Positions 7,847-16,475 of a stretch of DNA of 39,015 nucleotides are shown here, piece after piece. Both the position numbers and the translations under genes were made by a program. This stretch comes from Candidatus Tayloriibacteriota bacterium (GTDB taxonomy: Bacteria > Patescibacteriota > Minisyncoccia > Phycocordibacterales > PALSA-1337): contig CALRBR010000006.1 in NCBI GenBank assembly GCA_943354385.1, forward strand, positions 1 to 39,015, in the 5' to 3' direction. Within the stretch, counting starts at the first letter, position 1. Every line of letters begins with the position of its first letter. The notes under the pieces were generated by a model that made no database searches, had not been told where the DNA came from, and was given only the letters and a program-made list of their open reading frames with translations.

Positions 7847-7870
7847 ACATCTAAGCCATGGCTTAGATGT
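7847..7870. repeat. 24-bp perfect palindrome 3' of rnhB
   Basis: ACATCTAAGCCATGGCTTAGATGT. Confidence 0.85.
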
Positions 7871-7882
7871 AGAATGAACAAA

Positions 7883-8512
7883 CTATTCAAATCGGTCTTT
7901 AAGAAAACTCCTTCGGTGCAATGGCGATAGACCATACTTTTTGATTTTCTCATAATGTTTTTTAGTACCGTAGCCCTTATGTATTTCAAAATCGTACTGT
8001 GGGTACTTTTTCGCATACGCCACCATCTGTCTATCACGCATTACTTTTGCTACGATAGAAGCGAGGCCAATAATTGGCTCTTTCAAATCACCTTTGATAA
8101 TTGTTTTTTGATTTTTATATTCGGCTGGAGCATATAGGCTACCGTCCAGAAGGACTTGGGTTTTCTTGGGATCAGGCGCTACCTTTTTTAGTGACTTTTG
8201 AAGCGCTTTTTTTATAGATTGAGAAAGACCCTTCGCATCTATCTCTTTTGCAGATATAAAAGTGACTACAAAGTTTAGTGCACGGTTTTTTTTAGCTGCC
8301 AAGATTTTCGCAAACCAACTCTCTCTCCTTATTGACAGTAATTTTTTAGAATCTTTGATGCCAGAAAAAAGGGCACGGTACTCGGCACTCGAAAGCTTAG
8401 TTTTCGCGTGTGCCACATCCACGCAGACGGCCCCAACCGCCACCGGCCCCGCTATTGGCCCGCGACCAACTTCATCTACACCCACAAGATACTTAGGAGT
8501 ATATTTTTTCAT
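7883..8512 (-). CDS. rnhB: Ribonuclease HII
   Basis: YLVGVDEVGRGPIAGPVAVGAV, IKDSKKL, IGLASIVAKVMRD, GYGTKKHYEKIKKYGLSPLHRRSF. Confidence 0.96.
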   Translation of the reverse strand: MKKYTPKYLVGVDEVGRGPIAGPVAVGAVCVDVAHAKTKLSSAEYRALFSGIKDSKKLLSIRRESWFAKILAAKKNRALNFVVTFISAKEIDAKGLSQSIKKALQKSLKKVAPDPKKTQVLLDGSLYAPAEYKNQKTIIKGDLKEPIIGLASIVAKVMRDRQMVAYAKKYPQYDFEIHKGYGTKKHYEKIKKYGLSPLHRRSFLKDRFE

Positions 8513-8557
8513 TCTAAAGTCATTTTATATAGTATACCTAGTATACCCCGAATTTTT

Positions 8558-8605
8558 TACAAACAAACGACATCTACGCTATAGCGTAGATGTCGTTTGT
8601 TTGTA
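8558..8605. repeat. 48-bp perfect zero-spacer palindrome between divergent rnhB and dnaE
   Basis: TACAAACAAACGACATCTACGCTA|TAGCGTAGATGTCGTTTGTTTGTA; all 24 pairs checked by hand. Confidence 0.93.
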
Positions 8606-8722
8606 TTTTTCTATTCATACATCCTACACATTCGCTCTGGTGAGCTCGGTACTTCCGCCGTAAGTCACGGCTTCTGAATCTTACTTCTTAAATCTATTCT
8701 CAAATGCTATAGTATACGAACT

Positions 8723-11700
8723 ATGGCCTCGAAATTCGTCCATCTCCACACACACAGCCACTATTCCCTCCTCAATGCCTTACCGAAAATAGACGAGCTC
8801 GTAAAAACTGCAAAAAAACAGGGGCAGACTGCACTCGCACTCACTGACGCAGGAAATCTCTACGGCGCTATCGAGTTTTATAAAGCCTGCAAAAAAGCCG
8901 ATATCAAACCAATCATCGGTATCGACGCCTATGTGGCAGTCCGTACTCGAAAAGATATGCAAGCCGGAGTAGATAATCGTCGTGCCCGCCTCGTTTTGCT
9001 AGCCAAAAATCTCGAGGGCTACAAAAATCTCATCCAGCTAGTAACCAAATCACACCTCGAGGGCTTTTATTACAAACCCCGTATCGATAGCGAACTCATC
9101 GAAACACATCCTCAAGGTCTCATCGCTATTGCCCCCTCTTTTTCGAGTGAGATCAGTCTCGCCCTCAAAAATCGCGATGTCGAAAAAGCCAAAACAAAAA
9201 TCGTCTGGTACAAAAAAGTTTATGGCGTAGATAACTTTTTTATCGAAATCACCCACCACCCCGAAATCGATGGTCATGAAGCCCTGATGCAACAGCTTTT
9301 GAAACTCGCTCGAGAGACCGACACTCCTATCGTCGCCGCGCACGATGTCTACTATATACACACCAGTGACAGATCTGCTCGAGATACCCTCATGCTCGTC
9401 AACACTCACGGCGATGTTTCTGACCGTATCTCGGACAACGATGACGAAAACTTTTCTTTCCTTTCTGGAGAAGAAATGGAAGTTCTATTTAAGGATGAGC
9501 CTGATGCTATCGAGAACAGTGCGAAAATCGCCGATCTATGCAACCTCGAGCTCGAGCTCGGCAAGTGGGTGTTTCCCGACTACAAAGTAGCTAGTGGCCT
9601 TTCCTATGATGACGAACTACGCCGACTCGTATATGAAGGTCTTTTAAAAAGAAAAGTTGAAAAGACAGACGAAGTGGAAAAACGCGTTGAATATGAGCTA
9701 TCCGTCATCAAAGCAAAAGGCTATGCTCCGTACTTTCTCGTAGTATCCGACCTGCTTCACTTTGCACACGACAATCACATCCTCACTACAATTCGAGGTT
9801 CGGTGGCGGGCTCTATGGTCACGTATCTAGCGGGAATTACAAATGTAAACCCTATCGAGTACAAGCTTCCCTTTGAGCGTTTTCTAAACCCCGAGCGTCC
9901 CTCTGCTCCCGATATCGACATGGACTATGCCGATAATCGCCGAGACGAAATGATCGAATACGCCAAGAAAAAATACGGTGCAGATCGCGTGGCACAGATC
10001 GGTACTTTTGGTACTATGGCTGCCCGTGGAGCGGTGCGCGATGTCGCGCGAGCCATGGGCTTCCCATATGACGTCGGTGATCGTATTTCCAAGCTCATCC
10101 CAATGGGCGCGCAAGGCTTTCCCATGACTATCGACCGCGCCGTCGAAGAAGTTCCCGAGCTCAAAGATATTTATAAAAAAGAAGCCGATGTCAAAAAGAT
10201 TATCGACATGGCAAAGAAGATTGAAGGTTGTGCCCGACACATCTCTGTGCACGCTGCTGGTGTGGTGATCGCTCCTCGACCACTGACGGACTTTACTTCT
10301 CTACAGTACGATACCAAGGGAGAAAATAAAATCATCACTCAGTTTGATATGCATGCAGTGGAAGATGCAGGTCTTCTCAAATTTGACTTCCTTGGTATTA
10401 AAAACCTTTCCATCCTCGCCGACGCTGTTGAGCGAGTAAAGAAGATTGAAAATATTGATGTTGATATTGAAAATGTCCCGCTCGAAGATGCAAAAACATT
10501 TTCCATGCTGGCCAAAGGCGAGACGGCTGGACTTTTCCAGCTCAATGGCGCCGGCATGACCAAATTTCTCAAAGAACTCCGTCCGAGCACTATTCATGAC
10601 ATCAACGCGATGGTGGCACTCTATCGACCAGGACCAATGGAATGTATTCCTCAATATATCGAACGAAAAAATAATCCCGAGCTTATAAAGTATCTCGACC
10701 CACGCATGAAAGAGATCCTCGCTCAGTCATACGGTGTCATCACCTATCAGGACGACGTCATGATGATCGCGATCAAGCTCGGTGGCTACTCCTGGCTCGA
10801 GGCAGACAAACTCCGTAAGGCGATGGGTAAAAAGATTCCAAAAGAAATGGAGGAACAAAAAGGCAAGCTCCGTGAGGGACTTTTAAAAAATGGTATGAGC
10901 GAGAGGAAGGCTGACACACTATGGAAGCTCATCGAGCCTTTTGCCGCATACGGATTCAACAAAGCCCACGCCGCTTCTTATGGTCGTGTTGCATACCAAA
11001 CGGCATACATGAAAGCCAACTTCCCGACCATCTATATGTCTGCGGTACTTACTGCTGACTCAGGAGATGTAGAGAAGATTTCTGAATTTATTACAGAATG
11101 TAAGCGTATGGAGATTCCCGTTTTACCGCCAGATATCAACGAAAGTTTCAGTCAGTTTACCATTGTCAAAGGCGACAACACTCCTATCAACCCCGACCGT
11201 ATTCGCTTTGGACTGGTCACCATTAAAAACTTTGGCCAAGGTATCGCCAGTGCCATTATCGAAGAGCGAAAATTAAACGGCAAATTTAAATCTCTCACCG
11301 ACTTCCTCGACCGAGTCAAAGATAAAAATTTAAACAAAAAATCTCTCGAAGCGCTCGTGAAAGCTGGGGCAATGGACTCATTTAGTGAACGTGGCAGTAT
11401 GATCGGCAACATGGAACAGCTCCTCGCCTACAACAAAGAAAAGGGTAAAATGCCAGATAATCAGGACTCGCTTTTTGGACTAATGGCCGACCACTCAAGT
11501 GTTCCTACTCTACGCCTAGCCGAAGTTCCACCCGCGTCTGCTTCAGAAAAATTGATCTGGGAAAAAGAGCTCCTCGGCCTCTACATTTCCGGCCACCCAC
11601 TCGACAAATATCGCGACGTTTTTGCAAAAAGAGATGTGGTGATTAAAACTATAAAAGACACGCCTAAAGAAGGTCAGATTGTGGTGCTCGCAGGCATCAT

Positions 11701-11920
11701 AGAAGAAGCAAAAATCATCGCTACCAAAAAAGGTGATAACATGATGTTTCTCCGTCTCGCTGACTTCACCGGCTCACTCGAAGTCGTCGTCTTCCCCCGT
11801 GTCTTTGCCGAGTCAAAAAGTTTCCTCATCGCCGAATCCTGCGTGGCCATCAAAGGCAAAGTATCTCTGCGCAACGGCGAAGTGAGCTTCCTCGCAGAAA
11901 AAATAAAGAAGTTAAGTTAA
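8723..11920 (+). CDS. dnaE: DNA polymerase III subunit alpha
   Basis: FVHLHTHSHYSLLNAL PHP domain, PDIDMDYADNRRDEMIEYAKKKYG, YRPGPMECIPQYIERK, YGFNKAHAASYGRVAYQTAYMKANFP, C-terminal OB domain. Confidence 0.97.
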   Translation: MASKFVHLHTHSHYSLLNALPKIDELVKTAKKQGQTALALTDAGNLYGAIEFYKACKKADIKPIIGIDAYVAVRTRKDMQAGVDNRRARLVLLAKNLEGYKNLIQLVTKSHLEGFYYKPRIDSELIETHPQGLIAIAPSFSSEISLALKNRDVEKAKTKIVWYKKVYGVDNFFIEITHHPEIDGHEALMQQLLKLARETDTPIVAAHDVYYIHTSDRSARDTLMLVNTHGDVSDRISDNDDENFSFLSGEEMEVLFKDEPDAIENSAKIADLCNLELELGKWVFPDYKVASGLSYDDELRRLVYEGLLKRKVEKTDEVEKRVEYELSVIKAKGYAPYFLVVSDLLHFAHDNHILTTIRGSVAGSMVTYLAGITNVNPIEYKLPFERFLNPERPSAPDIDMDYADNRRDEMIEYAKKKYGADRVAQIGTFGTMAARGAVRDVARAMGFPYDVGDRISKLIPMGAQGFPMTIDRAVEEVPELKDIYKKEADVKKIIDMAKKIEGCARHISVHAAGVVIAPRPLTDFTSLQYDTKGENKIITQFDMHAVEDAGLLKFDFLGIKNLSILADAVERVKKIENIDVDIENVPLEDAKTFSMLAKGETAGLFQLNGAGMTKFLKELRPSTIHDINAMVALYRPGPMECIPQYIERKNNPELIKYLDPRMKEILAQSYGVITYQDDVMMIAIKLGGYSWLEADKLRKAMGKKIPKEMEEQKGKLREGLLKNGMSERKADTLWKLIEPFAAYGFNKAHAASYGRVAYQTAYMKANFPTIYMSAVLTADSGDVEKISEFITECKRMEIPVLPPDINESFSQFTIVKGDNTPINPDRIRFGLVTIKNFGQGIASAIIEERKLNGKFKSLTDFLDRVKDKNLNKKSLEALVKAGAMDSFSERGSMIGNMEQLLAYNKEKGKMPDNQDSLFGLMADHSSVPTLRLAEVPPASASEKLIWEKELLGLYISGHPLDKYRDVFAKRDVVIKTIKDTPKEGQIVVLAGIIEEAKIIATKKGDNMMFLRLADFTGSLEVVVFPRVFAESKSFLIAESCVAIKGKVSLRNGEVSFLAEKIKKLS

Positions 11921-12385: not shown

Positions 12386-12438
12386 TAAAATAGTATAGCA
12401 TAGCTATTCCAGCCTCGAGTAGAGCCACTGTTTAGTTT

Positions 12439-12468
12439 AAAGGCTCAACGGGCACCCGTTGAGCCTTT
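12439..12468. terminator. Stem-loop of the AAAGGCTCAAC family between divergent promoters
   Basis: AAAGGCTCAACGGG-CA-CCCGTTGAGCCTTT. Confidence 0.75.
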
Positions 12469-12485
12469 CAAAGTTTTTTGACCAG

Positions 12486-12525
12486 AATTCCCCCGAAAAT
12501 GTCTACTACCATTTTCGGGGGAATT
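12486..12525. terminator. 16-bp perfect stem-loop between divergent promoters
   Basis: AATTCCCCCGAAAATG-tctactac-CATTTTCGGGGGAATT. Confidence 0.75.
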
Positions 12526-12577
12526 TTTCCGCCCTATTCTTAATTCATGAATCTAGATTCTGACTTCTACAGATCGT

Positions 12578-15799: not shown

Positions 15800-15839
15800 T
15801 ACACACCTTTAGTACCCGGTCGGGTACTAAAGGTGTGTA
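15800..15839. terminator. 19-bp arm stem-loop
   Basis: TACACACCTTTAGTACCCG-GT-CGGGTACTAAAGGTGTGTA. Confidence 0.75.
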
Positions 15840-16447: not shown

Positions 16448-16475
16448 ACGCATCTACGCTATAGCGTATATGCGT
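16448..16475. repeat. 28-bp palindrome (one mismatch) 3' of truB
   Basis: AACGCATCTACGCTATAGCGTATATGCGTA region; core identical to the 8558-8605 palindrome. Confidence 0.85.

Follow-up and report, generated by a model that had tools for sequence, protein, structure and literature searches.

A genus-restricted family of perfect zero-spacer palindromes with a common core and private arms in Candidatus Taylorbacteria

Introduction

The 39,015-nucleotide stretch of DNA analysed here (the window) is contig 6 of a Candidatus Taylorbacteria genome (G000; 662 kb, 97% complete), whose nearest named relatives are Patescibacteria FW305_bin.8 and Candidatus Taylorbacteria CH-Oct18-75. Between two divergent genes, rnhB and dnaE, lies a long palindrome without a spacer, for which an earlier note on this DNA had offered three roles: a bidirectional terminator, a cruciform or a protein-binding site. 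What might such a sequence do, and how do its arms stay perfect? Intergenic stem-loop repeats are a known kind of sequence (PMC2267715, PMC3733652), and the origin of long perfect stems and the survival of their pairing under sequence change is an old question (PMC8794818).

The palindrome in the rnhB-dnaE gap

The palindrome TACAAACAAACGACATCTACGCTA|TAGCGTAGATGTCGTTTGTTTGTA occupies positions 8558-8605 and is exactly what had been claimed: 48 bp, made of two 24-nt arms (8558-8581 and 8582-8605) that are 100% complementary with 0 nt between them. No other perfect inverted repeat of the window is as long. The inverted-repeat scan and a covariance model place it in a family of zero-spacer palindromes, here called family E; the model matches 8566-8597 on both strands with 48.6 bits, a score obtained with this copy in the training set. 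Its 24-bp core, ACATCTACGCTA|TAGCGTAGATGT (8570-8593), is common to other family E copies in the family alignment, with the consensus centre GCYA|TRGC. The left outer arm, TACAAACAAACG (8558-8569), is private to this copy when the copies are compared, and the right outer arm, CGTTTGTTTGTA (8594-8605), is its exact reverse complement. As RNA, the palindrome folds with -37.6 kcal/mol (z -11.6) on the plus strand and -39.1 kcal/mol on the minus strand. A T-run (TTTTT, then C; 8606-8610) follows the plus-strand hairpin, and the minus strand and the sister species described below have no such U-tract. The sole match in an Rfam search of the window is a tRNA, and membership of a known RNA family was rejected.

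Both neighbours were named by NCBIfam models above their curated cut-offs and are divergent: ribonuclease HII (rnhB; 7883-8512, minus strand; NF000595, 1.7e-53) and DNA polymerase III alpha subunit (dnaE; 8723-11920, plus strand; NF004226, 1204 bits). Read by eye, the -10-like elements of the two genes lie outside the palindrome. They are a putative extended -10 of dnaE, TGCTATAGT (8705-8713, plus strand), identical in the sister species, and two candidate rnhB -10 elements, TATACT, at 8536-8531 and 8545-8540 (together 8531-8545, minus strand). Since the putative dnaE -10 sits 9 nt from the start codon, neither rnhB nor dnaE mRNA should include the palindrome, and this layout suggests a near-leaderless dnaE mRNA.

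Moreover, the same gap of the sister species CH-Oct18-75 (G002; locus L056) holds ACCCAAAACTCTAATATACGCCA|TGGCGTATATTAGAGTTTTGGGT, a 46-bp zero-spacer palindrome with the same type of core and with outer arms that are different yet again perfect. It lies there 33 and 29 bp from the two start codons, and the spacing to dnaE is 29 bp as against about 118 bp here. A survey of related genomes, as the earlier note had advised, covered 55 relatives' loci with divergent rnhB-dnaE: only the sister species has such a palindrome and a few others have unrelated hairpins, so that conservation at this site beyond the genus was rejected (1/55 loci). An unrelated hairpin with 24-bp arms and internal repeats (ACTTGGAAACCCCGACTTGGAAAC) is located 62-112 bp upstream of dnaE in Parcubacteria group bacterium GW2011_GWA1_40_21 (L064).

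Members and distribution of family E

We searched for zero-spacer arms around GCNATNGC in three species of the genus, covering G000, G001 up to contig 60, and G002 with contigs C7 and C8 up to their final parts. As a result, 23 family E sites were obtained, 5 in G000, 6 in G001 and 12 in G002. They have in common the centre GCYA|TRGC and an AT.T..GC frame, while each copy has outer arms of its own, nearly all of them perfect; the copies have no common sequence outside the stem. With the covariance model all three genus genomes match, and the other members of the 53-genome taxonomic family gave a single site, in one genome of another genus. As judged from these matches, family E is restricted to the genus. 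In L067, another Patescibacterium, two zero-spacer palindromes end in TTTAGCAAATCCCGACGG and differ at their outer ends, and from this locus the pattern of a core with private arms may be present beyond the genus. The half-site ATCTACGC is not enriched genome-wide, with 14 occurrences against 11.8 expected in G000 and 18 against 15.8 in G002.

The window holds three copies. Besides 8558-8605, the inverted-repeat scan found ACATCTAAGCCA|TGGCTTAGATGT at 7847-7870, 12 bp past the rnhB stop codon, and a copy with one mismatched pair at 16448-16475, 16 bp past a gene 3' end. The G001 site that matches 16448-16475 also carries a family E palindrome with other arms, so that two sites (the rnhB-dnaE gap and 16448) are conserved between species. 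Other copies have no counterpart: for C53:13823, C1:22201 and C1:216010 of G001 and G002, the aligned G000 site is without a family E palindrome, and therefore gain and loss also occur. Neither a clean empty site nor a target duplication was seen at the compared sites. In the open-access literature we found no report of a fixed core flanked by private perfect arms, nor of arms replaced at the same site, and family E is apparently undescribed.

Hairpin load of the genome

Family E is one part of a large hairpin set. Counting arms of at least 12 bp and loops of no more than 8 nt, G000 has 161 perfect hairpins, whereas three whole-genome Markov-1 simulations gave only 3-5 hairpins with 10-11 bp arms and none longer, which rules out a chance origin. 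By comparison, 50 kb of E. coli K-12 contained two such hairpins. For arms of at least 14 bp, the three genus genomes have 19-23 per 100 kb versus 6.9 per 100 kb in 80 dnaE comparison loci, nearly all of which come from other Patescibacteria. The hairpins fall into sequence families, namely terminator-like A/GC/T stems, CCCCGAAAAT stems with tact/agta loops, a large GGCTMA family and family E; palindrome families BC and A_AT are also spread, mostly without a U-tract. In most G000 hairpins the arms are 1-8 nt apart, and they change jointly in the way described below for family E.

Several further observations concern this set. Some 10-mers are strongly over-represented, such as ATTCTCCCTT in G000 (59 vs 1.8 expected) and ACGGCTCAAC in G002 (63 vs 1.0 expected), with CTGTAGACGG, GTCGATCGTT and ACAGGTGTCG further examples from G000/G002. 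Palindromes of different families stand in tandem within 100-250 bp at 12436-12557 of the window, C2 14932-15106 and C4 41963-42180, as if such sites collected palindromes. A small family with a 2-nt spacer (gt/ac) was seen at 15800-15839 of the window and at C9:12868-12909, with TTAGTAAGA before it and a GGGGTTTT stretch after it. Finally, the palindrome CCTTGCGCAAGGAC|c|GTCCTTGCGCAAGG lies inside a conserved 2.2-kb gene (C1:70215-70243, within L030 = C1:59701-73740); both relatives are without about 30 bp there, and it therefore looks like a clean, frame-keeping insertion. Similar GCAAGGAC hairpins are found near Y1 transposase matches at C5:32.4-33.7 kb.

How do such palindromes persist? 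For SbcCD hairpin cleavage in vitro, the lower limit has been quoted as palindromes of 20-36 bp (PMC4245961). Perfect palindromes above this limit are common in G000, where 52 hairpins have arms of at least 18 bp. SbcD was not found in the genus, and in the taxonomic family no genome reaches the cut-off, with five weak matches. The premise that a sequence of this kind is normally unstable was thus overstated, as a 48-bp palindrome is not intrinsically unstable. That absence of SbcCD lets palindromes persist is a correlation, and the wider family is also without a clear SbcD yet without family E.

Joint change of the two arms

In a 32-column alignment of family E, both partners change in 10 of 14 pairs, with 76 two-sided against 1 one-sided changed pair cells and a covariation score of 0.589 versus 0.152 in shuffles. 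The members were picked as palindromes, which favours perfect arms, and therefore the 76:1 ratio is not independent proof. For all hairpins of the genome, 28 tightly anchored orthologous intergenic comparisons were chosen only by their flanks. In 28/28 of these a hairpin is present in the relative too, and in 25/28 it is perfect, with 73 two-sided and 3 one-sided differences. However, tRNA stems of the same genomes, used as a control, gave 35 two-sided against 5 one-sided differences, not significantly different from 73:3 (p 0.12). Compensation alone therefore cannot tell selection from copying, and the ratio was rejected as proof of template switching.

Other features bear on how the arms change. 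Mismatches in near-perfect stems are not mainly G-U. Arm changes are clustered in blocks (39 runs vs 48.6 expected, p 0.0004), to which alignment offsets could add, and the loops are inverted in 2 of 11 classifiable orthologous comparisons. An overall excess of transversions (p 0.013) was discarded, as it is gone in the strictest subset aligned without offset (16 vs 15). Polymerase template switching is reported to leave homogenised arms and inverted spacers (PMC8604942, PMC8794818), and the blockwise changes and the two inverted loops would match what template switching during replication predicts.

Position at gene ends

Family E is mostly intergenic, with 19 intergenic copies among the 23 sites, and 11 of these 19 lie within 35 bp of a gene 3' end versus 2.8 expected, a count that none of 1000 placements reached. 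The terminator-like class F behaves much alike (74/158 vs 24 expected). Beyond position 12, the 5' arms of family E are rich in A (A 59, T 20). Moreover, Rho was not found in the three genus genomes nor in the 53 genomes of the taxonomic family, by a search that was positive in 12 of 14 known genomes used as control.

These results agree with one part of the proposed bidirectional terminator, namely the 3'-end bias, the A-rich 5' arms and the lack of a detectable Rho. The other part has less support, because only 3 of the 11 3'-end-proximal copies have a U-tract where the stem ends in the sense direction (vs 55/90 in class F), and because the 8558-8605 copy is upstream of both its divergent neighbours rather than behind a gene 3' end as family E as a whole is. 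Its own U-tract is on the plus strand only, and the sister palindrome has none. Divergent gaps hold 3 of the 19 intergenic copies, close to the 3.5 expected.

Discussion

As a classical terminator fits only in part, with a U-tract in 3/11 copies and the present copy upstream of both genes, we read the family E palindrome as a strand-symmetric border hairpin, in which both arms would be rewritten jointly. This reading is tentative, although we prefer it to the others. Whichever strand is transcribed, family E RNA would fold into the same strong hairpin, and the likeliest role of the family would be to mark transcript ends or borders in bacteria without Rho. At the divergent site the hairpin might stop or trim stray transcripts that head from one promoter to the opposite gene, chiefly in the rightward direction, in which the T-run follows. 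The arms would remain perfect despite sequence turnover because both are rewritten at once. The simplest cause would be a replication fork that switches template across the hairpin, perhaps aided by selection on the stem, and without the hairpin nuclease SbcCD such palindromes could then persist. Two points speak against a border hairpin: by the putative promoters, 8558-8605 is in neither mRNA, and terminator logic leaves the common core sequence unexplained.

The main rival, in our judgement unlikely but to be taken seriously, is that family E is a functionless or selfish repeat, which spreads like REP or miniature mobile elements and is tolerated behind stop codons; its perfect arms would be a by-product of template switching without SbcCD, and it would have no part in transcription. 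Such a repeat would account for a common core with private flanks, the restriction to one genus, the many copies without a U-tract, the likewise spread families BC and A_AT, the several sites not conserved between species, and the blockwise changes and loop inversions. It is less easily reconciled with the strong bias to 3' ends (11/19 vs 2.8) and the A-rich 5' arms, with the two sites conserved between species, and with the lack of a transposase common to the three genomes and of any clean empty site or target duplication at the compared sites.

An operator or roadblock, with a dimeric protein that sits on the GCYATRGC-centred core and controls the divergent rnhB and dnaE promoters, is improbable. 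The dyad core is conserved, and in the sister species the palindrome would abut both -10 regions, 33 and 29 bp from the two start codons. However, divergent gaps account for only 3/19 intergenic copies, against 3.5 expected, and most copies are at 3' ends. Complementarity also extends to 24 bp and takes in the private outer arms, which is more than an operator usually has, and the spacing to dnaE differs between the species. The suggestion of a protein-binding site is therefore weakened, as the outer arms differ from copy to copy and the majority of copies lie elsewhere than in front of promoters. Perfect palindromes with no spacer are well suited to cruciform extrusion, yet a topological element that senses supercoiling at the divergent promoters is very improbable, since most hairpins of the genome have spacers of 1-8 nt with the same joint arm change and the copies at 3' ends would be left unexplained. 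Metagenome assemblies can contain fold-back artefacts, but an assembly artefact is in practice ruled out because an independently assembled sister genome carries a palindrome with the same core at the same site, and 23 family E sites occur in three assemblies.

Returning to border hairpins with jointly rewritten arms, a wider proposal, which we regard as speculative and rather doubtful, is that in Patescibacteria without Rho and SbcCD template switching keeps writing and rewriting intergenic hairpins. Transcript-end hairpins would then evolve by block replacement of both arms rather than through compensation step by step, and new sites would be seeded by a zero-spacer family whose core is fixed. 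A 0.7-Mb genome with more than 100 perfect hairpins, exchanged arms at the same site and no detectable SbcD offers a natural test bed for the old question raised above. It also suggests that transcript ends in these bacteria may be made without Rho, by a large set of hairpins that is open to testing in a laboratory host.

Comparison with known systems

Several known systems resemble family E in part. First, REP/BIME sequences (GTAG and CGTC super-families, PMC3733652) are likewise short intergenic palindromic repeats, often just behind stop codons, genus-restricted and with several subfamilies. Family E is an extragenic palindromic repeat, but it has no GTAG or CGTC tag at the foot outside the stem, its stems are long and perfect instead of 5-13 bp, it has zero spacer, private outer arms and 5 to about 12 copies per genome, and no Y1/RAYT transposase is associated with it in two of its three genomes. 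In fact, the Y1 transposase (PF01797) was found only in G000 and not in G001 and G002, which carry as many or more copies, and a REP with Y1 transposase was rejected. Second, the DUS/USS inverted-repeat terminators of Neisseria and Pasteurellaceae (mentioned in PMC2267715) are also repeated sequences arranged as palindromes at gene ends; the half-site of family E, unlike theirs, is not over-represented alone, and identity with an uptake signal was rejected. Third, bidirectional intrinsic terminators (A-tract, hairpin, U-tract) share the strand-symmetric hairpin, the A-rich 5' and U-rich 3' arm and the position near gene ends, whereas family E is mostly without a U-tract, has a common core and includes copies in divergent gaps.

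Fourth, Parcubacteria related to this host (Ca. Campbellbacteria, Ca. Kaiserbacteria) head a published list of inverted-repeat density (PMC13155455), and that survey, as far as consulted, deals with density and says nothing of families, of orthologous sites or of the two arms changing jointly. Finally, inverted repeats homogenised by template switching (PMC8604942, PMC8794818) are alike in their perfect arms, multibase two-sided changes and spacer inversion. They differ in that no single event was caught here between close strains, and in that the present hairpins occupy more than 100 sites per genome and include a family built on a common core.
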